DNA from: a virus
Length of the DNA stretch: 64,000 nt
Strand: one strand, 5' to 3'
Virus record (IMG/VR): IMGVR_UViG_3300044492_000149
Coordinates: 1 to 64,000 of that record
Notes under the pieces: model-generated
Told to the model about the DNA's origin: nothing
Databases searched by the model: none
What the model saw: the letters and a program-made list of their open reading frames with translations, nothing else
Made by a program: the position numbers and the translations under genes
Shown here: positions 16,067-52,020 of the stretch, piece after piece
Layout: each line of letters begins with the position of its first letter
Position numbering within the stretch: position 1 is the first letter of the stretch

Positions 16067-17587
16067 ATGAGCATCGACTCACTGCGGAGCGGGGCAATTC
16101 GAATTTGCTTCGATCCTTCTTTGAATGCCTACCCTAACAAGTGCCGCATCTTGCTTGAGGGCCAGATGCTTACCACGGGCACGGCAGAACCAAACGCCCT
16201 GATCAAGATCCCGTCGCTGCGTGACGTCGATCTTCTCTTCGGCGAAGGCAGCGTCATCTCCAATGGCTTGAAAGTGGGCTTCGCTTGTTGCCCAGATCAG
16301 GTCATGGAGTTCTACGCCCTGCCGCGCAACGATCAGGATGTTGGTGCAACGGTAAAGGCCAAGTACACGATCACCTTTACTGGGACGGCTACGTCTGACG
16401 GTCGGGCCGATTTCTTCGTCGCCGATGGTCGCTGGAACACGTCGACTCGTATCACGGAAGGCATGACTCCCGATGAGGTTGCTGCGGCAGTCGCGGCGAA
16501 CATGGAAGTCGAGGCAGGCTTTCCGTTCGATCCAGTAGCTACGGCAGGCGTCATCACGCTGACAGCTAAGAACGCTGGCACGGTTGGCAACAACATCGGT
16601 ATCATCTACAACTGGCACCAGCGACGGGACTACGCACCTCTCGGTGTGGATGTGGTCGTTGCTCAGTCAGTCCAAGGGTTGCACGCTGGAGCCTTTGCCG
16701 CTCCTGACTACGCGGCCACCCTCGGCGAGTGCTGTTACTGCTGCATCGGCATGCTTTACGACAGCCCGGTATGGCAAGACTACATGATCGCTTACATTGC
16801 CGACGCCTGGTCTTGCGACAAGCCCCAGTGCTTCGGCCATGGTTACACTTACAACAGCGGTACCCTCGGCCAGATCTTGGCCACGGACACGAACTCGGCA
16901 GAGGTCAGCCGGATCGCCCACTGCACGACTGATCCGATCGCTGGCTACCTCGAGGTCGCCGCTTACGCTGCTCAATCCTGTTGCTTGACGGTGAACAACC
17001 CCGAGCTGAGCATCCAGGGACCAAACTTTGGTGTCCTGTCCTGCGTCTTGCAGCCGGAGTCGTGCTTCCAGTGCTTCACGTTCGAAGAGCAGCAGCTCCT
17101 GCAGGCCACGGGGTTCGTGGTCGTGGTGCCGCTCGCTGGTGGCGCCGGGTCCATGACTAGCCCGATGGTCGTGAATGACATCACGAACAACCGCTACGAC
17201 GAGGAAGGCAAGTTGAACGCCACCTGGTGGAATGTCAACTCTCGTCGTCTGGCGGCCGCTACAGCTGACGCTATGGCCATCCAGCTGGGTCAGGTCCTTG
17301 GTCTGGGACTGTTCACGAAGAACACGGCGATCCCCCGTGGCGTTCGCGGCACCAACCCCAAGCTGATCCTCGGGATGGTTCGGTCTTGGGCGAAGTCGAA
17401 CATCGGGGTCTTGTTCTCGGAGTTCGATGACATCGACAACGACATCGTGCTCATGACGGACTTCGAGAAAGCTCCTCGGTGCCAGGGCATTCCGGGCAAG
17501 CTGTGGCTCGATTTTACTTATCGGCCGCCAGTCCGTATCTCTAACATCATCATCAACGCCAAGCCGGCGCTGCTGAGCAACTGTTAA
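16067..17587 (+). CDS. contractile tail sheath protein (Mu gpL-like)
   Basis: 506 aa, a standard sheath length. Mu-type sheath features: start with PSLRDVDLLFGEGSVI near residue 48, the domain with AGTVGNNIGIIYNWH near 170, and the C-terminal part KLNATWWNVNSRRLAAATAD and TDFEKAPRCQGIPG with the closing VRISNIIINAKPALL strand. It contracts to drive the tube through the envelope. Odd: 18 cysteines (for example GECCYCCIG), far above usual for sheaths. Confidence 0.9.
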   Translation: MSIDSLRSGAIRICFDPSLNAYPNKCRILLEGQMLTTGTAEPNALIKIPSLRDVDLLFGEGSVISNGLKVGFACCPDQVMEFYALPRNDQDVGATVKAKYTITFTGTATSDGRADFFVADGRWNTSTRITEGMTPDEVAAAVAANMEVEAGFPFDPVATAGVITLTAKNAGTVGNNIGIIYNWHQRRDYAPLGVDVVVAQSVQGLHAGAFAAPDYAATLGECCYCCIGMLYDSPVWQDYMIAYIADAWSCDKPQCFGHGYTYNSGTLGQILATDTNSAEVSRIAHCTTDPIAGYLEVAAYAAQSCCLTVNNPELSIQGPNFGVLSCVLQPESCFQCFTFEEQQLLQATGFVVVVPLAGGAGSMTSPMVVNDITNNRYDEEGKLNATWWNVNSRRLAAATADAMAIQLGQVLGLGLFTKNTAIPRGVRGTNPKLILGMVRSWAKSNIGVLFSEFDDIDNDIVLMTDFEKAPRCQGIPGKLWLDFTYRPPVRISNIIINAKPALLSNC

Positions 17588-17626: not shown

Positions 17627-18088
17627 ATGTTAGGTCTTATTATCCCGCTCGGCGTTCCGGGCGGTGGTAGCCCCGATCAGAGCTTGCCTGGTCAGCCCGG
17701 GCATCCGTCCAACGCGCTGCCCGGCGGCGGCCATGTATCGGGTCAGCCGGTTCCTGGCGGTGGTGGCGGCCGCCCCTCACAGGGCCTCCCCGGTCAGGGT
17801 GGCAGCGGCAGCACGTTGCCGACCGATGAAGCCTGGATTCTCGCCTATAGCCCGCGCAATGGCTACAGCTGGGTCAAGGCCAGCGATCTCGTTGGCAGTG
17901 GCCATCGTCCAGGACAGGAGCTTCCGGGCGGACCTCCCGGCCATGCATCCGGACAGCCCCTTCCTGGCGGTGAGCACGGTTCCACGCAGCCGGTGCCCGG
18001 TCAGCCGCCGCATGCATCCGGTCAGCCGGTGCCTGGGCAGCCGCCGCGTCCGGATAATCAGCCAAGTGGTGCCCAGCCGAAGAAGTAA
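17627..18088 (+). CDS. Gly/Pro/Gln repeat protein
   Basis: 153 aa of irregular units such as SGQPVPGQP, DQSLPGQPGH and GQELPGG on both sides of a short folded insert (DEAWILAYSPRNGYSWVKAS, about residues 66-85). Low complexity; AAGGAG SD. Located between sheath and tube genes and followed by a strong hairpin. Similar PDQxLPG-repeat proteins occur near sheath genes in related phages as far as I recall; function unknown. It could be an extended linker or virion surface protein. Confidence 0.7.
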   Translation: MLGLIIPLGVPGGGSPDQSLPGQPGHPSNALPGGGHVSGQPVPGGGGGRPSQGLPGQGGSGSTLPTDEAWILAYSPRNGYSWVKASDLVGSGHRPGQELPGGPPGHASGQPLPGGEHGSTQPVPGQPPHASGQPVPGQPPRPDNQPSGAQPKK

Positions 18089-19689: not shown

Positions 19690-19709
19690 GAGTCAAAGGC
19701 CTTTGACTC
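19690..19709 (+). promoter_or_regulatory. 20-bp perfect palindrome before exported-protein genes
   Basis: GAGTCAAAGGCCTTTGACTC is self-complementary over all 20 bp and lies 24 nt before the ATG at 19734. It can be an operator for a dimeric regulator or form a hairpin in RNA. Another CAGCAGGAACTTCTGCAGG pairing sits just upstream. The 19640-19733 gap has no gene. Confidence 0.7.
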
Positions 19710-19733: not shown

Positions 19734-20471
19734 ATGCGAACTCTGCTGGCAGCCTCAGCGCTGCTCCTGACGGCGTCATGCTTGACGCCAGCTAATGCTG
19801 TTACTATCAATGCTGCTGACATCGGTCTGACTGGCACCACCGTGGTGCAGGGCATGGTCGATATCGGCAACACTCACACGGTCATTCCCGGTTTGACTGG
19901 GACGTTAGGACTGACTTTCCTTGGCAGAACCGGCACGTTGTGGAATTTTGCTTACACCGTGACGAATACTTCCAGCGGCAACGTCACCGGTTCTTCGATC
20001 AGTAACTTCGGTCTCAACGTCACGCCCGATCTGGCGCCGACGGGATCGACGGCTACTGGATTGTTTGGTGGTAGCGTGTCAACGCCCGGAAATGAACCAG
20101 TCGGCATTGGCAGCGTCGATTTTTGTGCCTCGACTGGCCCAAGCTGTCCTGGCGGTGCCAGCAACGGTGTTGACGAGGGTCTAAGTACGAGCGGGCTGTT
20201 CTCGCTTAACTTCACCAGTGTGCTAGGGTCGATCACGCTCGATTCGGCTGACATGCGCTGGCAGGAAATCACTGGTACCTTCAACGGACAAAGGCTTCCT
20301 GAGTCTGGTGCTGGTACTAACCCTAGCGTTTGTCCGGACTGCACGATCACTCCGGTCAACGCCGTACCGGGTCCTATTGCAGGAGCCGGTATTCCAGGAC
20401 TAATTGCTGCTTGTTTGACCTTGGTTGGTTTGGCTAAACGTCGACGGCAGCGATTGGCCGGTCTGGCGTAA
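19734..20471 (+). CDS. exported protein with PEP-CTERM-like C-terminal sorting tail
   Basis: 245 aa. Signal peptide MRTLLAASALLLTAS then Cys/Ala-rich cleavage region (ANA, about residue 22). The Thr/Ser/Gly/Asn-rich beta domain is like secreted surface proteins. The C-terminus has VPGPIAGAGIPGL (about 211-223), a hydrophobic helix (IAACLTLVGLA) and a basic end KRRRQR, the tripartite plan of PEP-CTERM/exosortase or related sorting substrates. It is paralogous in plan to the next gene. In a phage tail operon this is unexpected; likely displayed on the host envelope. Sorting is inferred. Confidence 0.8.
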   Translation: MRTLLAASALLLTASCLTPANAVTINAADIGLTGTTVVQGMVDIGNTHTVIPGLTGTLGLTFLGRTGTLWNFAYTVTNTSSGNVTGSSISNFGLNVTPDLAPTGSTATGLFGGSVSTPGNEPVGIGSVDFCASTGPSCPGGASNGVDEGLSTSGLFSLNFTSVLGSITLDSADMRWQEITGTFNGQRLPESGAGTNPSVCPDCTITPVNAVPGPIAGAGIPGLIAACLTLVGLAKRRRQRLAGLA

Positions 20472-20537
20472 GCCATTCCGGAGACGACCGCGCGCCGAGA
20501 CGTCGACGCGTGGAATGTTGATCAAGGAGACTAAAAA

Positions 20538-21197
20538 ATGAAGAGTCTACTCTACGCGTTTGCAGCAGTAGCGGCGTTGGCGGTCAGTCCCGCTCTCGCC
20601 GACACGATTACGGCCACGGCAACGGTCGATGGCGGTCTAACCCAGACCACCACCACCGTTAACGGCACGCTTAATATCATCGGTGGATCGATTGGAGCGT
20701 TCTCGTTTAACACTGTTAGTGCCAACTCGCAGACGACGCTGCCGGCTCCAGGGATTCTCACGACCAACTCCCTGAACTTGCAGCAGACGGCGGCAGGTGC
20801 GCACACGCTGGTGTTGGACATCACGGCATCGCAGCTCGTTGGCACCAACGCCCTGACCAACTTCCTCTCGACGTTCTCGGTTAGTGGCTTGACGGCGGGT
20901 TGGACGGCACAGGAACAGACCTTCATCAACGGCACGCTGTTGTCCTCTACCCCGGTGTTCACCACGGTATCGGGTTCGGCGAACGCCACGGTGGCCCGGT
21001 TGGAGACTAATCCGTTCTCGGCCGAGGTGCGTTACACCATCACCTCGAATGGTCCTGGTGGCTTCAATGGCGGTATCGACATTAGCGGTACTGCAGCTGT
21101 CCCTGGTCCGGTGGTCGGTGCTGGCTTCCCCGGTCTGGTCGCTCTGCTTGGCGGCATCTGGGGTTGGAAGAAACGTCGTCAGCTTTTGACGGCGTAA
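20538..21197 (+). CDS. second exported protein with PEP-CTERM-like tail
   Basis: 219 aa. Signal peptide (MKSLLYAFAAVAALAVSPALA, cleavage after ALA at about 21). Thr/Ser/Asn-rich beta domain with repeated TTT/NGT motifs. C-terminus VPGPVVGAGFPGLV followed by a TM helix and WGWKKRRQ. Same three-part tail as the neighbour at 19734 but with a different body. SD CAAGGAGA lies upstream. A strong terminator follows immediately, isolating the pair as a two-gene unit with the palindrome at 19690. Confidence 0.8.
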   Translation: MKSLLYAFAAVAALAVSPALADTITATATVDGGLTQTTTTVNGTLNIIGGSIGAFSFNTVSANSQTTLPAPGILTTNSLNLQQTAAGAHTLVLDITASQLVGTNALTNFLSTFSVSGLTAGWTAQEQTFINGTLLSSTPVFTTVSGSANATVARLETNPFSAEVRYTITSNGPGGFNGGIDISGTAAVPGPVVGAGFPGLVALLGGIWGWKKRRQLLTA

Positions 21198-21205
21198 TCT
21201 AAAGG

Positions 21206-21247
21206 GGGCCGTAGTGATCCGAGTCACTGCGGCCCTTCTCCGTTTTT
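21206..21247 (+). terminator. intrinsic terminator after exported-protein pair
   Basis: GGGCCGTAGTGA (21206-21217), loop TCCGAG, TCACTGCGGCCC (21224-21235; one G-U pair), then TTCTCCGTTTTT. A strong 12-bp stem with a U-rich tail inside the late operon. Readthrough would be needed for the tape measure and baseplate genes. Confidence 0.8.
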
Positions 21248-21264
21248 CCTGGAACGAGGCTACC

Positions 21265-21597
21265 GTGTTGCGCGCTAAGGAAGCCCTGTTTCTGCATCGC
21301 CAGGGTCAAAATTACCTGCAGATCGCTAACCGGTTCAAGCTCACGCGAGAGCGCGTTCGACAACTCATCAACATCGCGATCCAGCTTGAATCCCTCGAGG
21401 AAGCTCCCGACAACGGCCTGTCCGTTCGAACCCACAACGCTCTAGTCCGCGGGGGGATCGAAGAGATCTCGCCTGAGGCCGTCAAGACCCATTTCCCGAC
21501 CCTCGAACGGTTAGCTAGAATTCCCGGCATGGGAGAGAAAGCTATCGAGGAGTTGCAAGACTGGTTGGGTAAAAACGGGGCTGAAAAGATCCAATGA
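21265..21597 (+). CDS. regulator with sigma-region-4-like HTH and RNAP alpha-CTD-like domain
   Basis: 110 aa from GTG 21265 (SD ACGAGG, 4 nt spacing); an in-frame GTG at 21214 would lie inside the terminator hairpin and is less likely. Residues about 6-36: LFLHRQGQNYLQIANRFKLT followed by RERVRQLIN, the sigma70 region 4.2 HTH signature (TRER-RQ). Residues about 48-100: GLSVRTHNALVRGGI and RIPGMGEKAIEELQDWL align with the RNA polymerase alpha C-terminal domain (LTVRS-NCL ... LGKKSL-EI). Probably contacts DNA and host RNA polymerase. A chimera of this type is unusual. Placed right after the internal terminator. Confidence 0.75.
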   Translation: MLRAKEALFLHRQGQNYLQIANRFKLTRERVRQLINIAIQLESLEEAPDNGLSVRTHNALVRGGIEEISPEAVKTHFPTLERLARIPGMGEKAIEELQDWLGKNGAEKIQ

Positions 21598-21824
21598 ATT
21601 TTAAGATACCCTTGTTCGTCGTTCGGTCTTGGGACTGGTTTGAAGGCCAGATCAACAAAGACCTCATCTGGCGAATTCGGATCGTCGATGTTTTTCTTCT
21701 CGTAAGTTTTTTATTCTGCGTCGGGTATTACTGGTGGTTCTATAATTGGCAGTACGCAATCTACGCTGGCATCCTGTACGGCGTGATGATGTTAACCGGG
21801 TTCTTCCTCAGGGACTACGGCTAA
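21594..21824 (+). CDS. small membrane protein, two TM segments
   Basis: 76 aa, ATGA overlap with the previous gene. TM1 about 31-50 (VDVFLLVSFLFCVGYYWWFY) and TM2 about 54-72 (AIYAGILYGVMMLTGFFL). N-terminal part amphipathic. Located before the tape measure gene. Possibly a lysis or superinfection-related protein; function not recognised. Confidence 0.65.
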   Translation: MNFKIPLFVVRSWDWFEGQINKDLIWRIRIVDVFLLVSFLFCVGYYWWFYNWQYAIYAGILYGVMMLTGFFLRDYG

Positions 21825-21839
21825 AAACAGGGGGCCGTC

Positions 21840-24602
21840 ATCGCCTCTTTCGTCGAGCAAGCTACCCTCCAAGTAAGAGATCAGTCGACCGCTCAGATCA
21901 ATAAGATCAACGCGGCGTTGAAAACCCTTGCGACCACAGCGAAGTCCCTGAAGTCGATCAAGATCGACATCAAGGTCAACGACGCCAATGTAGACAAGGC
22001 CACGAGAGCCCTGCGAGCCTTGCGCAACGAGGTCAACGCCGCCAAGCGCGCACAGAACATCAACATCACTGCCAATACGGGTTCGGTTCGTCAAGCCCAG
22101 AACGCAGTTCGTGGTCTCACGCGAGACATCCGTGGTCTGAAGAACACCTCTACCGCAGCCCGCGTCAACATCAACACTAGCGCGATCTCCCAAGCCCGCC
22201 AGCAGTTGGCAGCGTTACGGTCAGCCGCTCGGCGGCCTATCAATGTTCCCTTTGTTAATGCTGGTGGCGGACCCGGTGCTGGTGCTGGTAGGCCTGGCCT
22301 TGGGGGCGGCCGTCCCGGCGGTGGCCGTCCTGGAGCCCCCGGTGCTGGTGGCGGAGGCGGTGGTGGTCGTGGTTTCATCGGTGCTGGACTTGGCGCTGCT
22401 GGTCGAGGTTTCAGTGCCGGTTTAGGCGGTGGCCTGGGTTTCCTTGGGATCAACCCAGCATTCATGGCGGTGACGGCGGCAGCTTATGCGGCAGCGGCTG
22501 CGTTGAAGGCCGTAACCGAGAGTGCTGCTACTCGTGATCGTACCAAGCTGCAAGCCGCTGTGGCAGCTACACCAGCGCAACAAGCTATCATTGATGCGAA
22601 CAACGCGGACAAGACAAAAGACCGTGGTCCCCTGCCTTACACTGACGACGAACGCAAGCAGCTGGTAACTTCGCTTCTTGGTGACGTCCAAGGCGAGGGC
22701 AAGACGCCGGAAGAACGGGGCGAGGCTAGAGCTAGGGCCGCTATCAACATCGCTGATCTCATGGAACGGGAAGTTCTACCCCGTCAGTATGCTTTAGGTG
22801 GTCCAGATAAATCACCGGAGGATGTTAAGGCAGGTGTTCGTAAGCTTGTTCAGGCCATGAACTTGGCCTCGACGGACATTACCGATGAAAAGGGCAACAT
22901 CACCAAAGAAGGTCGTCGTGTTCTAGAGGGTATTCAGATCGCCCAAGCGGCCGATCCGGAACTGACGCCCGGTATGATCAAGACTACGCTGGCGAACCTG
23001 AAGACCGCCGGCTACAGCTTTAGCGCCGATGCCATAGCCAAGACGTTGATGAACGCCGGTAACCGCGGCGTTCGGTCCGCCAACGAAGCTTATCGGGCAA
23101 TGTCGTCGGCCACAGGTACGATCGACAACAAGGCACTGAACGAAGGTCTGGCTAATCTTAAACTTCTAGAAGGTTTCGACCGTAAGGAAGTCGGAAAGAA
23201 AAGCAAGAAAAAAGGTTCCATTATTCCTGGCAGTGGCCACGCTGTCGATGAAGCGGGATTGTATGAAGATCCCTATATGTGGTATCAGCAACACGTCGTT
23301 CCAAAGATGCAGGAAGACATTGGCAAGACTAATGCCTCTAAGGAACGAATGCGAGCTGCTAAAGAGGCGGGTAAGACACAGGACGAAATTGCCGCTGCCG
23401 GTGAGGCGACCAACGCTGAAACGATAGCTTGGATTGGTAGAAACTTCAAAAACATGTCAGCCGCTGGCAAGCAGGGCGTCGCTGACATGATCCTTGGTAA
23501 CAAGCAGGCCCAGCAACAAGTCGAACAAGCTCGACTTTCGCTCAAACAAAACGTGCCAAACGCCATGGCCAAGTCCTGGACGGCGCAGTGGGCAAATCTA
23601 AAGACTGAATTGGAGAACCGTCGGGCGCAGATGGGCGACGCCATGTTTGAGAAAATGGGGCTCGCTGACAAGTTGAAGTACCTCACGGAGGCCATTAAAA
23701 ATCCGCAAGGCAAGGAAGCTCAAACTCTAACTGCTGGTGGACTGGACATATTCAAAGCAGGACTGGGACCGCTGGCTACGGCTGCTGAGGGTTTGATTCG
23801 AGGCGGTTCTTTGTTGATCGACGGTGCCACGGCTTTAGCCAACTGGTTTGGCGTCGGCAGTGCCCCCTCTAATCCCATCAGTAGTCAGACTCCAGAGCAG
23901 CAGACCGCTACCGCTTTGAAACTAGCCTTGGCTGATCTGGAAACGGCGAACCGTGGCACGATTTCGCCTTATCCGGAGGAACGATCCGCCGCCATCGCAG
24001 AAGTCGTTCGGTTGACGAAGGTCGTAAATCAGCTGGCGACTAACAAGGCTTACCAAGAAGGCATGATCAAGCCCGATTGGTTTGATCCGAAGAAATTCAT
24101 TCAGGTTCCGCCTGGCGGTAACTTCGAGAAGCCAACCGGTGCAGTTCCAGTACCAGCGCCAACCACAGAACGGCCGACGTGGCTGGATGACATAATTCGC
24201 AACCTGCCGAAGCCACCACCGGAGACTGATACAACGGTGGGAGGTGGTTTTGGTAAACCGTTGGACCCTTCCATTGGAATCACTCTCGATGCAGCAGCGA
24301 AGGGTGTCAATGACTCGTCAGTAAATCTCGCCAATTCCGTACTAGGTCTCAGTACTGCTAACAGCAACTTCAACACGACGTTTAACGCCTTTCCGCAAAA
24401 GGGCACTGAGGCTGGCACCAACGTCGGCAACAGTGCTATCGGGGTCATCCAAGGAGGAGCCGGCGGCGCTGGAGAGACCTTTGGCAACTCGGCGCTTGGC
24501 GTTATTCGTTCCGGCCTGTCCAACATCAGCATCAACGTCAATGCCAACGTCACTGGTGCTGGAGCGTCCGGTGACAAGGGCAGTCAGAAGGCCGCTGAGT
24601 AA
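21840..24602 (+). CDS. tail tape measure protein
   Basis: About 920 aa if started at ATC 21840; the first conventional start is TTG 21918 (894 aa). The upstream 26 codons (ASFVEQATLQVRDQSTAQIN...) look like a true tape-measure N-terminus, and AGGGGG lies 5 nt before the ATC, so near-cognate initiation is possible. Body: heptad-rich Ala/Gln helices, a Gly/Pro-rich hinge (about 145-180), a hydrophobic segment (about 190-220), helical C-terminal half. Sets tail length and is ejected with DNA. It is the largest tail gene after the chaperones. Product is sure, start is not. Confidence 0.87.
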   Translation: MASFVEQATLQVRDQSTAQINKINAALKTLATTAKSLKSIKIDIKVNDANVDKATRALRALRNEVNAAKRAQNINITANTGSVRQAQNAVRGLTRDIRGLKNTSTAARVNINTSAISQARQQLAALRSAARRPINVPFVNAGGGPGAGAGRPGLGGGRPGGGRPGAPGAGGGGGGGRGFIGAGLGAAGRGFSAGLGGGLGFLGINPAFMAVTAAAYAAAAALKAVTESAATRDRTKLQAAVAATPAQQAIIDANNADKTKDRGPLPYTDDERKQLVTSLLGDVQGEGKTPEERGEARARAAINIADLMEREVLPRQYALGGPDKSPEDVKAGVRKLVQAMNLASTDITDEKGNITKEGRRVLEGIQIAQAADPELTPGMIKTTLANLKTAGYSFSADAIAKTLMNAGNRGVRSANEAYRAMSSATGTIDNKALNEGLANLKLLEGFDRKEVGKKSKKKGSIIPGSGHAVDEAGLYEDPYMWYQQHVVPKMQEDIGKTNASKERMRAAKEAGKTQDEIAAAGEATNAETIAWIGRNFKNMSAAGKQGVADMILGNKQAQQQVEQARLSLKQNVPNAMAKSWTAQWANLKTELENRRAQMGDAMFEKMGLADKLKYLTEAIKNPQGKEAQTLTAGGLDIFKAGLGPLATAAEGLIRGGSLLIDGATALANWFGVGSAPSNPISSQTPEQQTATALKLALADLETANRGTISPYPEERSAAIAEVVRLTKVVNQLATNKAYQEGMIKPDWFDPKKFIQVPPGGNFEKPTGAVPVPAPTTERPTWLDDIIRNLPKPPPETDTTVGGGFGKPLDPSIGITLDAAAKGVNDSSVNLANSVLGLSTANSNFNTTFNAFPQKGTEAGTNVGNSAIGVIQGGAGGAGETFGNSALGVIRSGLSNISINVNANVTGAGASGDKGSQKAAE

Positions 24603-25792
24603 TGTCGCGAACGAACTGCGCCATTGGTAAGGACTACGCGCCCGCCTCGTTCAAGGGCGTGTCGTTCTTGTGCACGGAAGCCGACATCGAAGGCGGTCGT
24701 CGCGGCGCTGAAGGCGAGTTTCCGTTTGGTGAAAACACAGCGTACGCCGACTTAGGTCGGAAGATCCGAGTCTACCACCTGACGGCAGCGTTCCGAGAAG
24801 ACGATCACGTCAGCGACAGCCAAGCCCTGTTTGCCGTTTGCGAGTCTCCTGGTCCTGGCATCCTGGTTCACCCGACCCGCGGCAGCGTCATGGTGGCCTG
24901 CCGGTCGGCTAAGTTCAAGGATAGCATCGAGGATAAAGCGGGTGAGACGACGGCGGATCTGGAATTCGTCGAAGCTAATCCGATCAGCGGGCTCCTTGGT
25001 TCTCTGTTTGGCCTGATCTCGTCAGGCCTCAACACGGCGTCGAAGAATTCTTTCTTGCGGGACTATCGGCCTACTTTGGTGTCTCAGCCCTGGAGCAAAG
25101 ACATCATCGACCGGGCTCAGTTTCTCGTTGATCTGGTGGGCAAGACGTTTATCCGAACGATGGCGCCAGACGCCCCCGCTCAGGACTGGCGCGACGCTCT
25201 GAAGATCGAAGAGGTAGCCACCGATGACGGATTGGCAGCATCGGCTTCTAATGTGGACCGCGTTCTGGTTTCTGGTTTTCGCCATATATCTTCTAATGTG
25301 GTCGATCCAGCCAAAGCTTTTACTGTGATGAAGAAACTGGCCAATGCGGCTACGACCTCGTCGGACCTGCCGGCAGGGATCGCTGTCGAGAGCGAAGAAG
25401 CTGTCCTCAGCCGTCACCGGATCTTAGCGGCTACCGGCATGGCTGAAGCTGCGATGGGTAAGAAATACGCTTACATCGACGAAGCCCTGCAGGCGATGGA
25501 CGCCGTCCTGGCTGTTCTTGAAGACGAAGCCCAGGTCGCTTACAAGAACTGTGACAACACTCTGTTCTTGGAGTTGCGCAAGTACGCGACTGAGTTCGGC
25601 AAGATGATGAATGATCTGGCGTATCGCCTGCCAGGTCTCGTAGCTGTGAATTTCATGGGCGGGGTCCACCCGCTGGTCGCTGCTTACGCGATTTACAAAG
25701 ACGCCAAACGACACCGTGAGTTGGAGCAGCGAAACATCGTCGATGCTAATGGCCGCTTCCAGCCCGTGGTCGTCGGTGTTGCGCCAACGTAA
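24602..25792 (+). CDS. Mu gpN-like DNA circularisation / baseplate protein
   Basis: 396 aa. N-terminal ~95 residues (ASFKGVSFLCTEADIEGGRRG ... FPFGENTAYADLGRKIRVY) match the DNA_circ_N domain of Mu gpN. The middle has hydrophobic GLLGSLFGLISSG and the rest is helical (LEQRN near the end). In Mu-like tails this protein is part of the tail tip next to the tape measure. ATG overlaps the tape measure stop. Confidence 0.85.
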   Translation: MSRTNCAIGKDYAPASFKGVSFLCTEADIEGGRRGAEGEFPFGENTAYADLGRKIRVYHLTAAFREDDHVSDSQALFAVCESPGPGILVHPTRGSVMVACRSAKFKDSIEDKAGETTADLEFVEANPISGLLGSLFGLISSGLNTASKNSFLRDYRPTLVSQPWSKDIIDRAQFLVDLVGKTFIRTMAPDAPAQDWRDALKIEEVATDDGLAASASNVDRVLVSGFRHISSNVVDPAKAFTVMKKLANAATTSSDLPAGIAVESEEAVLSRHRILAATGMAEAAMGKKYAYIDEALQAMDAVLAVLEDEAQVAYKNCDNTLFLELRKYATEFGKMMNDLAYRLPGLVAVNFMGGVHPLVAAYAIYKDAKRHRELEQRNIVDANGRFQPVVVGVAPT

Positions 25793-41119: not shown

Positions 41120-42097
41120 ATGCACATCGTCATCTCGTCTGGCCACAGCAAATACGTCGGTGGCGCTAGCGACATCCTCGACGAAGTGACCGAGGCCCGC
41201 AAAGTGGTCGAGGAAGTGGCCAACGAGCTGCGCCTGCGCGGCGTCGAAACGACCACGTTCCACGACAACACCTCCCATGACCAGGACACCAACCTCAAGA
41301 CCATCGTCGATTTTCACAACGGTCGTAAACGCGATCTCGACATCTCGGTGCACTTCAATGCCTACGAGCACACGAACAATCCCCGCGGCACTGAGGTGTT
41401 TTACGGCAGCCCCGAGCAGTTGGCAGCCGAGGTCTCAGCAGCGATCGCCGAAGCTGGTGGGTTCATCGACCGCGGCGCTAAGGACGGCGGCAACTTGTAT
41501 TTCTGCAACAACACTGACATGCCGGCTCTGCTGATCGAGGTTTGCTTCGTCGATAGCGAGGCCGACGCCAGTTGCTACGTCATGAACTTTGAGACCATCT
41601 GTGAGTCTATCGCTGACGTGTTCGGCGATCGCGAGACGATCGAGGTTCCTGATCGACCCGAGCGGCCTGAGCCGCCCGAAGAAGTTGCCGGCGGCGAAGT
41701 GACCACGGGCAAGTGTTCTTGGTTCGGCGGTCCCGATGACGACGGCGTCGATCCTGATGAAGGTCTGGCCTTCATTTACGACGTCGATGACGCCCCGCAC
41801 CTGTTCCTGCCGGACCAGCCGAAAGGCACCACAGGGCTGGCGCGGCGGCTGAACCCCTATGTCCATTACTTCGCGATGCGGTTCGACTACGACGAGATCC
41901 CGAAGAGCGAGCTGCTCCGCCACGTCGGCCTGATCCGCAATCCCAAGACCGGCTTCGCCCTGGAGGCGTTCCCGGCCGATTGGGGACCGCACGAGGACAC
42001 AGGCCGGGTGGTCGACGTCAGCCCGGGCCTCCTGCTCGATCTTGGGCTGGCGACTGACGACGAAGTCGAAGTGATCTTCCCATACAAGGATGCATGA
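41120..42097 (+). CDS. endolysin: N-acetylmuramoyl-L-alanine amidase with C-terminal domain
   Basis: 325 aa. Amidase_3 zinc enzyme in residues 1-175: ISSGHS (His about 9), Glu about 25 (DEVTEAR), ISVHFNAYEH (zinc His near 77) and LLIEVCFVD (catalytic Glu near 139). The C-terminal ~125 residues (GKCSWFGGPDDDGVDPDEGL ... EAFPADWGPHEDTG ... VVDVSPGLLLDLG) look like an RlpA/double-psi-barrel-type wall-associated domain. SD TAGGAGT. Cuts peptidoglycan to release progeny. Confidence 0.88.
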   Translation: MHIVISSGHSKYVGGASDILDEVTEARKVVEEVANELRLRGVETTTFHDNTSHDQDTNLKTIVDFHNGRKRDLDISVHFNAYEHTNNPRGTEVFYGSPEQLAAEVSAAIAEAGGFIDRGAKDGGNLYFCNNTDMPALLIEVCFVDSEADASCYVMNFETICESIADVFGDRETIEVPDRPERPEPPEEVAGGEVTTGKCSWFGGPDDDGVDPDEGLAFIYDVDDAPHLFLPDQPKGTTGLARRLNPYVHYFAMRFDYDEIPKSELLRHVGLIRNPKTGFALEAFPADWGPHEDTGRVVDVSPGLLLDLGLATDDEVEVIFPYKDA

Positions 42098-44366: not shown

Positions 44367-44494
44367 TGGCTCAGCTTCTTGACGGTGCGCATGATGGCGT
44401 GACGCATCCGACGGTGGCACTGATCCTCGCGCATCACTTGCGCCAGCAGGCGCAATAGAACGCGAAGCTCATGGCGTAATTCGCGCTTGGTCAT
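44363..44494 (-). CDS. small basic protein (43 aa)
   Basis: ATG 44494 overlaps the upstream stop (TAATG). Arg/Leu-rich helix: MTKRELRHELRVLLRLLAQV then MREDQCHRRMRHAIMRTVKK. Amphipathic and basic; might bind nucleic acid or membrane. Not recognised. Confidence 0.45.
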   Translation of the reverse strand: MTKRELRHELRVLLRLLAQVMREDQCHRRMRHAIMRTVKKLSQ

Positions 44495-44772
44495 TAGCTC
44501 GCCCTATGGAAAACTAGCTTGCCGTTTTCCTCCGACACCGTACCAGTGACCTTGCCGCTGGGATCGCGGACGATGCGACTGCCGTCTTCCAGCAGCTCGA
44601 CCATGCCGACCAGCTCACCCTTGGCATCGCGCAAATAGATCATGTTGCCAAGCTTGGTGGCGGTGCCGGCTTTGACACCGTCGCTGGTCATGACGTCGGT
44701 AGTTTCAGGCATCTGTGCCGCCGCAACCGACGTCATTGCGATCAGGGCGATCACGCTTACAAGATTTCTCAT
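44494..44772 (-). CDS. small periplasmic protein with signal peptide
   Basis: 92 aa. Signal peptide MRNLVSVIALIAMTSVAAAQ, cleavage after AAA (about 19). Mature domain has repeated strand motifs (GNMIYLRDAKGELVGMVELL, RIVRDPSGKVTGTVSEENGK), like a small beta sheet. No Cys. Overlaps its neighbours on both sides. Function unknown. Confidence 0.65.
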   Translation of the reverse strand: MRNLVSVIALIAMTSVAAAQMPETTDVMTSDGVKAGTATKLGNMIYLRDAKGELVGMVELLEDGSRIVRDPSGKVTGTVSEENGKLVFHRAS

Positions 44773-50443: not shown

Positions 50444-51412
50444 ATGGCTTCCGTCCTTCGAGAGCTACAGGCGCAGTGGAACTCCCTGGTCCCGATGGCC
50501 CAGGCCCGTGGCATCAAGCGGGTCAAGCTGCTGGGCCAGGGCGACGTCCTGCGGGCTCCTCTCGAGCCGATCGCCTACCGACGGGCGAAGCTGGAATGGC
50601 TGCAGGCCCTTCTGGGCGGCACCAGCATGGCAGGCCTCGAAGGCGTGCAGTTCGGCGTCGAGATTGAAGTCATCCTGCCTCGGGGCGTGTCCAAGTCCAA
50701 CGCGGCGGCCCAGATCGCAGCCGCCGGCGTCCCCTGCCAGGAAGAGCTTTACGGCCACAGCGTGCCGCGGGGTCAGTGGAAGGTGGTGACCGATGGTTCC
50801 CTCGGCTACGCCCAGGGCGCTGAGTTCGTTTCCCCGCCCATGCGTGGCGAAGAAGGGTTCCGCCAGATGGAAACCGTCTGCCAGGTGCTGACCCGGATGG
50901 GCGCCAAGATCACGAGCAAGTGCGGCTTCCACGTCCACATCGACGTGGGTTCTGAGCCCGTCGATTTTTTCAAGAACTTGATCCGCCTGTACACTTCGGC
51001 AGAAAGACCCTTAGACACCGTGATGCCCATGTCCCGCCGCGGTACCACCAACCCCTATTGCTACCCCCTGCGGATCGACCAGAACGCCCTGACCGCGGCC
51101 ACGACCGTGAACAGCGTCATCCGGGCGATCGGCCAGAACCCTGACGTGCCGCGCAGCAGCACCCGGTTCCGGAAGATCAACCTGCAGTCGTTCAAGGCCT
51201 ACGGCACGGTCGAATTTCGCCACCACGGCGGCACCTGCGATGCTCAGAAGGCGTCCCACTGGGTGCGGCTGTGCATGCGGATGGTCCTGACCGCCCGGGC
51301 GGGAGAAAAAACCGTCACCACCCTCGAGGACCTGCTTGACACCGTCGGTTCCAACGAACTCGAGAAATCTTACTTCCAGGGCCGCCGGCAGTATTTTGGA
51401 AACAGGCCATGA
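50444..51412 (+). CDS. amidoligase-family enzyme
   Basis: 322 aa. Residues about 60-290 match the Amidoligase_2 family (carboxylate-amine ligase, GCS-like fold): VQFGVEIEVILPRG (about 67-80), WKVVTDGSLGYAQGAEFVSP (about 108-127), TSKCGFHVHIDVG (about 160-172) and YGTVEFRHHGGTCD (about 254-267). The conserved Glu, Asp and His residues of the ATP/metal site are visible. It would form an amide/isopeptide bond from a carboxylate and an amine. Directly followed, with 4-nt overlap, by a gamma-glutamylcyclotransferase-like gene, which suggests glutamyl-type substrates. Target unknown. Confidence 0.85.
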   Translation: MASVLRELQAQWNSLVPMAQARGIKRVKLLGQGDVLRAPLEPIAYRRAKLEWLQALLGGTSMAGLEGVQFGVEIEVILPRGVSKSNAAAQIAAAGVPCQEELYGHSVPRGQWKVVTDGSLGYAQGAEFVSPPMRGEEGFRQMETVCQVLTRMGAKITSKCGFHVHIDVGSEPVDFFKNLIRLYTSAERPLDTVMPMSRRGTTNPYCYPLRIDQNALTAATTVNSVIRAIGQNPDVPRSSTRFRKINLQSFKAYGTVEFRHHGGTCDAQKASHWVRLCMRMVLTARAGEKTVTTLEDLLDTVGSNELEKSYFQGRRQYFGNRP

Positions 51413-52020
51413 CCGAACTGAAGATCCCACAGCAATCCCTCCGGTGGACCCGCAGTCAGGTCCGCCGGCGGCGGGCTCTGTACCTGGCTTATGGCTCGAA
51501 CCTGAGCATGGCTCAGATGGACCAGCGGTGCCCGGGGGCTGATCCCATCGGCCCGGTCCTGGTTGGTCCTATGTCGCTGGTGTTCCGCGGCGTCGCCGAC
51601 GCTGTCCATCGCCCTGGCGGCAAGCTGGCCGGCGGCCTTTGGCGGATCAGTGACGAGAACGAGTTGACGCTGGACCGCCTCGAAGGGGTCCGTAGCCGGT
51701 TTTACCTGAAGCGGTACTTCACGGTCCTGGTCGACGGCCGGCCGGAGGATGCGTTGCTGTACCAGCTGAACATGACCCGCGGCGTGATGCCGCCCAGCGA
51801 GGAATACCTGGGCATGATCGTCCAGGGGTACCACGACTTCGGCCTCAAGCTGAAGTACCTGGACCGGGCGTTAGCTGAGTCGTGGAACGACAAGAAAGTG
51901 ACCTGGCGCCTGCAACAGCGCCACGACAATCGAGGCCGGCCAAAGCTGGCCAAGAAGAGACGACGGCAGGAATTCGTCCTGACGGAAGATGAACTTAGAC
52001 AAGCAGGAGCAAGACCATGA
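51409..52020 (+). CDS. gamma-glutamylcyclotransferase-like protein
   Basis: 203 aa. GGCT fold: LYLAYGSNLSMAQMDQRCPG (about 24-43), VLVGPMSLVFRGVADAVH, AGGLWRISDENELTLDRLEG (about 76-95; acidic Glu/Asp at the active site), FYLKRYFTVLV. The C-terminal ~60 residues are basic. GGCTs release gamma-glutamyl groups as 5-oxoproline, the reverse or trimming of glutamyl amide bonds. Coupled to the amidoligase by overlapping start and stop. Joint pathway is inferred. Confidence 0.83.
   Translation: MTELKIPQQSLRWTRSQVRRRRALYLAYGSNLSMAQMDQRCPGADPIGPVLVGPMSLVFRGVADAVHRPGGKLAGGLWRISDENELTLDRLEGVRSRFYLKRYFTVLVDGRPEDALLYQLNMTRGVMPPSEEYLGMIVQGYHDFGLKLKYLDRALAESWNDKKVTWRLQQRHDNRGRPKLAKKRRRQEFVLTEDELRQAGARP

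Follow-up and report, generated by a model that had tools for sequence, protein, structure and literature searches.

Phage-Encoded Exported Proteins with a VPGP-GAG Sorting Tail as Probable Cargo of a Host Exosortase

Introduction

Prophage-encoded LPXTG proteins are phage proteins that reach the surface of the host cell through a host anchoring pathway. The surface-exposed superinfection-exclusion lipoprotein Ltp is likewise a phage protein placed on the host surface by host anchoring (PMC3952083). Among sorting systems built around a C-terminal signal, the EpsH enzymes are described as having three characteristic motifs (Cys, NxxR and His) and an exopolysaccharide-locus setting (PMC1569441), and it has been reported that other bacteria require PEP-CTERM proteins to form flocs (PMC9012009; PMC12642866). 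MYXO-CTERM proteins with myxosortase, and GlyGly-CTERM proteins with rhombosortase, also combine a three-part C-terminal tag with surface sorting (PMC11980579, PMC3237569). In the open-access literature, we found no prior report of exosortase cargo encoded by a phage. An earlier note on a stretch of viral DNA (positions 1 to 64,000 of IMG/VR record IMGVR_UViG_3300044492_000149; hereafter the window, 64,000 nucleotides in length) proposed that two adjacent genes encode exported proteins with PEP-CTERM-like sorting tails, and that the phage displays them through a host sorting pathway. In this paper, we focus on these two proteins, P1 and P2, on the distribution of their tail in viruses and bacteria, and on the host enzyme with which the tail occurs.

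The Window Phage and the P1–P2 Locus

The window belongs to a 69.6-kb record of a contractile-tailed phage, in which PHROG matches mark the terminase, portal, major head protein, DNA polymerase, helicases, primase, baseplate hub and tail sheath, while an integrase was not detected with the two profiles tried. A near-identical phage has been assembled from another sample (IMG/VR 3300043353_000045). The ORFs of P1 and P2 are present at the coordinates claimed for them (Table 1), and their placement inside the tail operon is correct, since they lie between the sheath gene on one side and a large ORF and the baseplate hub gene on the other. The 20-bp palindrome noted at 19690 is also there; it is perfect, and the window holds no second copy, three mismatches being allowed. 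As RNA, it folds no better than shuffles (z −0.85), and thus an operator is possible, whereas a role as terminator is not shown. On the other flank, the intrinsic terminator noted at 21206 spans 21204–21237, and its 15 pairs fold far better than shuffled sequences (z −4.3).

Two small proteins of this phage have relatives that accompany sorting-tail genes elsewhere. In about nine dereplicated phage loci, homologs of the 76-aa two-helix membrane protein lie near sorting-tail genes and share their strand; the protein has no PHROG match, and may be either holin-like or a sorting helper. Homologs of the 92-aa exported protein stand directly beside sorting-tail genes in about eight dereplicated phage loci.

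Several other ORFs of the window deserve mention in their own right. An ORF in the tail operon (21214–21597, +) resembles sigma region 4 followed by a helix-hairpin-helix or alpha-CTD-like end, and its real start is probably later than the listed GTG, which falls within the terminator. A repetitive Pro/Gly-rich ORF (17627–18088, +) lies 3' of the sheath gene, and a similar ORF, with PSHPIAPGG repeats, follows a putative capsid gene in an unrelated phage (L003, 11262–11711). At 50444–52020 (+), an amidoligase gene (phrog_2443, E 3e-40) is followed by an overlapping 203-codon gene, a pair that may possibly make a peptide or amide modification.

Table 1. Coordinates of the P1–P2 locus, of its neighbours in the window, and of a gene that follows the host enzyme gene.
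Feature	Position	Strand	Description
Tail sheath gene	16067-17587		phrog_165; upstream of P1–P2
Palindrome GAGTCAAAGGCCTTTGACTC	19690..19709		Perfect, 20 bp; upstream of P1; candidate operator
P1	19734..20471	+	245-aa exported protein; cistern family PEP-CTERM protein
P1 signal peptide MRTLLAASALLLTASCLTPANA			Read from sequence
P1 sorting tail VPGPIAGAGIPGLIAACLTLVGLAKRRRQRLAGLA	20364..20468	+	In common with P2 and 176 viral places
P2	20538..21197	+	219-aa exported protein; family in 8 phages (alignment A6)
P2 signal peptide MKSLLYAFAAVAALAVSPALA			Read from sequence
P2 sorting tail VPGPVVGAGFPGLVALLGGIWGWKKRRQLLTA	21099..21194	+	Same as P1 tail
Intrinsic terminator	21204..21237	+	15-pair stem and T run; ends the P1–P2 unit
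Two-helix membrane protein	21594..21824	+	76 aa; companion of sorting-tail genes in other phages
Large ORF	21918-24602		Downstream flank of P1–P2
Baseplate hub gene	24602-25792		phrog_184
Endolysin gene	41120-42097		20 kb from P1/P2
Small exported protein	44494..44772	-	92 aa; pattern IGTATxxGNRxYLRDxNGE; 23 kb from P1/P2 here
~160-codon gene (bacterial)	L187:1059-1580; L243:7968-8447; L252:8253-8771; also L186, L188, L189, L190		3' of the host enzyme gene

Tails and Bodies of P1 and P2

P1 and P2 end in the same plan, VPGP-[IV]-x-GAG-[IF]-PGL followed by a hydrophobic helix and an Arg/Lys basic end, and these two are the only ORFs of the window to contain the pattern VPGP..GAG.PG, of which composition would lead one to expect about 5e-6 occurrences. 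The observation that the bodies differ while the tails match is borne out by profile comparison (hhalign), in which the P2-family profile aligned with P1 over 34 tail columns only (E 1.9e-11, 50% identity) and the two bodies, which are unrelated, gave no alignment. P1 matches the NCBIfam model NF033947, 'cistern family PEP-CTERM protein', with E 1.6e-34 and 119.4 bits (cut-off 60), and does so over positions 1–195 of 195, tail included. P2 reaches the cut-off of no curated model and is not a member of NF033947, and none of the curated sorting-tail models matched the VPGP tail. With PF07589 (PEP-CTERM), the phage record gave no match and the control was silent as well; the motif is Pro-Gly-Pro, not Pro-Glu-Pro. 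The three-part plan is that of PEP-CTERM-type cargo, and P1 belongs to a PEP-CTERM family, but the motif of the tail is VPGP-GAGLP.

The P2 family comprises members in eight phages with 28 invariant columns, and is often the second of two sorting-tail genes of which the first partner varies. The structure model of P2 is beta-rich (pLDDT 63), and a fold search starting from this moderate model gave no significant structural match. Homologs of P1 and P2 were found neither among INPHARED phages nor, in the case of P2, among genome contigs, and the profile of the P2 body gave no match to host ORFs with the HMMER filters on.

The Sorting Tail in Other Phages

In the viral contigs of IMG/VR, the tail was confirmed at 91 places with a profile built from three tails and at 176 with one built from 17, the pattern VPGP[IV][VA]GAG having marked 198 stretches of which 176 were confirmed. 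Recurrence at 176 viral places indicates that the tail is a selected module, as had been proposed from P1 and P2. The loci fetched hold 85 distinct complete tail proteins in 13 body groups and reduce to 75 dereplicated loci, 11 of which contain two tails (seven of these pairs being adjacent and on one strand). The motif lies 30–41 residues from the C-terminus in all 85 proteins; an AxA-type signal peptide is present in 80 of 83 by a simple pattern test, a C-terminal helix in every one of the 83, and a basic end in 82. A few of the bodies match families already associated with exosortases, namely FxDxF PEP-CTERM (2.8e-10) and XDD4 exosortase-dependent (1e-5), and families A8 and A9 keep many conserved columns. 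The model of A9 folds well (pLDDT 85); its best PDB match is a flagellar sheath protein (E 7.5e-4), followed by carbohydrate-binding modules at E ~3e-3, with TM-scores of 0.3–0.45, which hints at a sandwich of the kind that binds sugars.

The recurrent neighbours of these genes among the 75 loci are endolysin (12), major head (9), terminase (8), portal (7) and RecE (6), together with integrases of two families (13 loci), and in several phages, the gap between the end of TerL and the tail gene is about 25 bp. At least one of endolysin, head, terminase, portal, integrase or RecE lies within 4.5 kb in 32 loci, and such neighbours indicate that the carriers of the tail are phages of many kinds. 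The most widely shared neighbour family is found in at most 12 of the 75 loci, and the head and tail-core genes of the window phage stand near a sorting-tail gene in no other locus except that of the near-identical contig; therefore, the module has moved among unrelated phages. The enzyme profile detected no exosortase in the ORFs of the viral loci, in the window or in the viral contigs scanned, and hence the phages would depend on an enzyme of the host.

The Sorting Tail and its Enzyme in Bacteria

A search of 257 Gb of genomes with VPGP[IV][VA]GAG gave 358 stretches, of which 14 were confirmed, in two Bradyrhizobium MAGs, two unclassified Alphaproteobacteria MAGs, Rhodoblastus acidophilus DSM 137, Chthonobacter, Siculibacillus and an Acidobacteriaceae MAG. 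The earlier note had named a lack of host homologs bearing the tail as one result that would refute it, and such homologs exist. Bacterial genomes with the tail are rare and belong mostly to Hyphomicrobiales, and the excess of tails in viral contigs partly reflects uncultured hosts, since viral and genome collections sample different habitats. Bradyrhizobium MAG G001 has nine tail proteins; of the 120 genomes of its family, 116 lack such proteins. Host tails beside the enzyme often read [AV]PxP..GxGLP and continue with Leu, Ala or Val, whereas phage tails read PGL, a form found among bacteria mainly in Bradyrhizobium and related MAGs. By this likeness of tails (GLPGLIAAC..RRRR), our best guess is that the window phage infects a Bradyrhizobium-like bacterium such as G001. 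The NF033947 family was not seen in 13 host genomes, a search in which no control rang.

The enzyme was at first read as absent, as PF09721 gave no match in eight tail-bearing genomes. That reading was rejected once TIGR04178, the exosortase/archaeosortase signature, exceeded its cut-off in five of seven tail-bearing genomes (four of six isolated proteins reach it), and the PF09721 result is therefore a miss of the model and not an absence. In six aligned host enzymes, Cys203, Asn246-x-x-Arg249 and His264 are invariant, residues that correspond to the EpsH motifs (PMC1569441), and all 35 related sequences aligned retain the Cys, NxxR and His. At their cut-offs, none of the named exosortase classes matches the host enzyme, which scores far below them and so forms a separate class within the limits of the model library. 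Its gene is surrounded by genes for Wzz, a glycosyltransferase, a Wzx/flippase-like protein and a pyruvyltransferase, a polysaccharide-locus setting like that of EpsH (PMC1569441). Directly 3' of it in nearly all carriers is a conserved gene about 160 codons long, in a position that recalls EpsI behind EpsH; the copies of this gene that were compared with Pfam and NCBIfam gave no match. Rhodoblastus acidophilus DSM 137, a strain in culture, has both enzyme and tail, its tail reading PAL after GAG-L where the phage tail has PGL.

Among 348 Hyphomicrobiales genomes, the tail is present in seven, and a strong enzyme match, defined as E<1e-59, in the same seven, three of which had seeded the enzyme profile. 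With the seeds left out, four of four tail genomes among 345 have the enzyme (p ~1.7e-9), and when all weaker enzyme matches are counted as well, p is 5.7e-7. A class-wide search added one further tail genome, which also has the enzyme, 160 bp from the tail gene. The two also adjoin each other: searching 3–4 kb around enzyme genes with the motif [VAM]PxPxx[GA]xGLP-helix-RRR, and without the phage profile, we found a short tailed ORF at 9 of 20 strong loci, a count that is descriptive since the motif was loosened after the first examples had been seen, and at 0 of 14 more distant exosortases and 0 of 680 shuffled loci, two controls that were not so chosen. Over all surveys, by our own count, 17 of 19 genomes with a strong enzyme have a tailed protein. 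Of seven Xanthobacteraceae with a strong enzyme, five lack a match to the phage tail profile, four of these having a variant tail beside the enzyme and one (G111) none that was seen; in addition, two genomes (G012 and G089) show weak tail matches with the enzyme absent. Such absences are soft, as the candidates of each genome were scored only in part, and contamination of MAGs is possible. Tail and enzyme are thus paired in bacteria, by co-occurrence as well as by adjacency, and the check proposed in the earlier note, on whether hosts encode an exosortase-like enzyme, turns up a class without a name that PF09721 misses.

At six loci (L197, L198, L199, L200, L243 and L255), very short tailed proteins stand directly beside the host exosortase gene, and consist essentially of a low-complexity stretch and the sorting tail, several being rich in Gly, His and Asn.

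Probable Sorting of Phage Cargo and Alternative Explanations

Many phages carry the tail, and bacteria that use it carry the enzyme; hence, phages probably place proteins of their own on the surface of the infected cell. We consider it likely that P1 and P2 are cargo that the phage supplies to an exosortase of its host, and that the infected cell then displays or releases them; sorting of such cargo by the host enzyme is strongly supported by genomics. The sorting part of the earlier note's interpretation gains from the placement of P1 in a PEP-CTERM cargo family, from the host tails and from the co-occurring and often adjacent enzyme, and calls for two corrections: the tail is VPGP-GAGLP instead of PEP, and the enzyme belongs to a class that TIGR04178 finds and PF09721 misses. 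On this reading, P1 and P2 would be expressed from a unit of their own inside the tail operon, and their signal peptides would lead them into export by Sec, after which the helix and Arg cluster would halt them in the inner membrane with VPGP-GAG-x-PG near the outer face, a step suggested by the architecture, as in other exosortase cargo. The Cys/Arg/His exosortase of the host, belonging to an alphaproteobacterial class encoded in exopolysaccharide loci, would then cut at or near the motif and presumably deliver the beta-rich bodies to the surface of the cell or to its matrix. In the last and weakest step, the displayed bodies might alter the surface or its EPS in such a way that rival phages adsorb less or the release of progeny is helped.

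The foremost alternative, though an unlikely one, is that the proteins are decoys, by which the phage floods the host exosortase, blocks the sorting of host surface and EPS proteins, and strips or loosens the matrix during infection, the tail then counting for more than the bodies. Only the tail is common across the different bodies, and late-gene positions such as that just after TerL would suit high late expression, both of which agree with a decoy; however, a decoy needs no conserved bodies, and those of the P2 family, A8 and A9 are conserved. It is less probable still that the tail is an uncleaved inner-membrane anchor for periplasmic proteins in which exosortase is not involved. A signal peptide, a C-terminal helix and a positive end would suffice for this, but an anchor has no need of an invariant VPGP..GAG.PG, and the bacterial occurrence of the tail tracks one enzyme class and adjoins its gene.

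That these are host cargo genes which phages acquired accidentally, and from which they gain nothing, appears very unlikely. In its favour, the body of the P2 family is weakly like that of a protein encoded on the same G001 contig as the exosortase (hhalign score 26.9; shuffles ≤17.2); against it, the genes have kept intact reading frames and are conserved across dozens of phages unrelated to one another, occur in pairs at several loci, have their own terminator in the window, and, in the P2 family, persist as second gene with different partners. We see hardly any room for lysis proteins, such as one-piece spanins joining the inner and outer membranes, which would accord with the endolysin family at 12 of 75 loci and the holin-like two-helix family at 9, always on the same strand, since the one-piece type needs an N-terminal lipobox and a strict lipobox is present in 0 of 83 tail proteins, a result on which spanin identity was rejected; moreover, the endolysin is not near in most loci, the window included, and some bodies match exosortase cargo families. 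Least probable of all are virion components, an assignment in keeping with the position of P1 and P2 between sheath and baseplate genes, but at odds with the signal peptides, with 0 of 83 tail proteins matching any PHROG (E<=0.001), and with positions that vary between phages whose neighbours are not in common.

Returning to sorting by a host exosortase, superinfection exclusion or a change of the matrix is a plausible benefit, and the most speculative part of the proposal; it agrees with the placing of the enzyme gene among EPS genes, with the integrases near tail genes in 13 of 75 loci and, weakly, with the sandwich fold of A9. In a broader form, which we advance tentatively and with some doubt, unrelated soil phages of Hyphomicrobiales-like hosts might carry exchangeable cargo cassettes, often with the two-helix or the small exported protein, that hijack one undescribed class of host exosortase in order to coat or remodel the polysaccharide surface against rivals.

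Significance and Comparison with Known Systems

A class of exosortase without a name is now paired, by genomics, with its recognition tail, and exosortase cargo would be encoded by phages and not only by bacteria. As Rhodoblastus acidophilus DSM 137 is cultured, sorting itself is directly testable, and so is any influence of the phage cargo on adsorption. The tail would also give a clue to the host of dozens of unassigned soil phages.

Of the systems that resemble this one, myxosortase and rhombosortase are proteases unrelated to the host enzyme and act with other motifs. LPXTG proteins and Ltp follow a Gram-positive sortase or lipoprotein route, and the likeness to them is one of function, with no homology claimed. 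With the models of XrtD (VPLPA-specific), XrtX, XrtR and archaeosortase D, the host enzyme gives weak scores that stay far under the cut-offs of these classes. PEP-CTERM/EpsH (PMC1569441) has in common with the present system a signal peptide, a C-terminal motif with helix and Arg cluster, many cargo proteins per enzyme, and a multi-pass Cys/Arg/His enzyme in exopolysaccharide loci; it differs in that the motif here is [VA]P[GA]P..G.GLP instead of PEP, in that the cargo is phage-encoded, and in that the host enzyme has CSS where the EpsH family has CxG and is missed by PF09721. On the side of the cargo, P1 matches the whole profile of the cistern family NF033947 at twice the cut-off, with its tail in the VPGP form.
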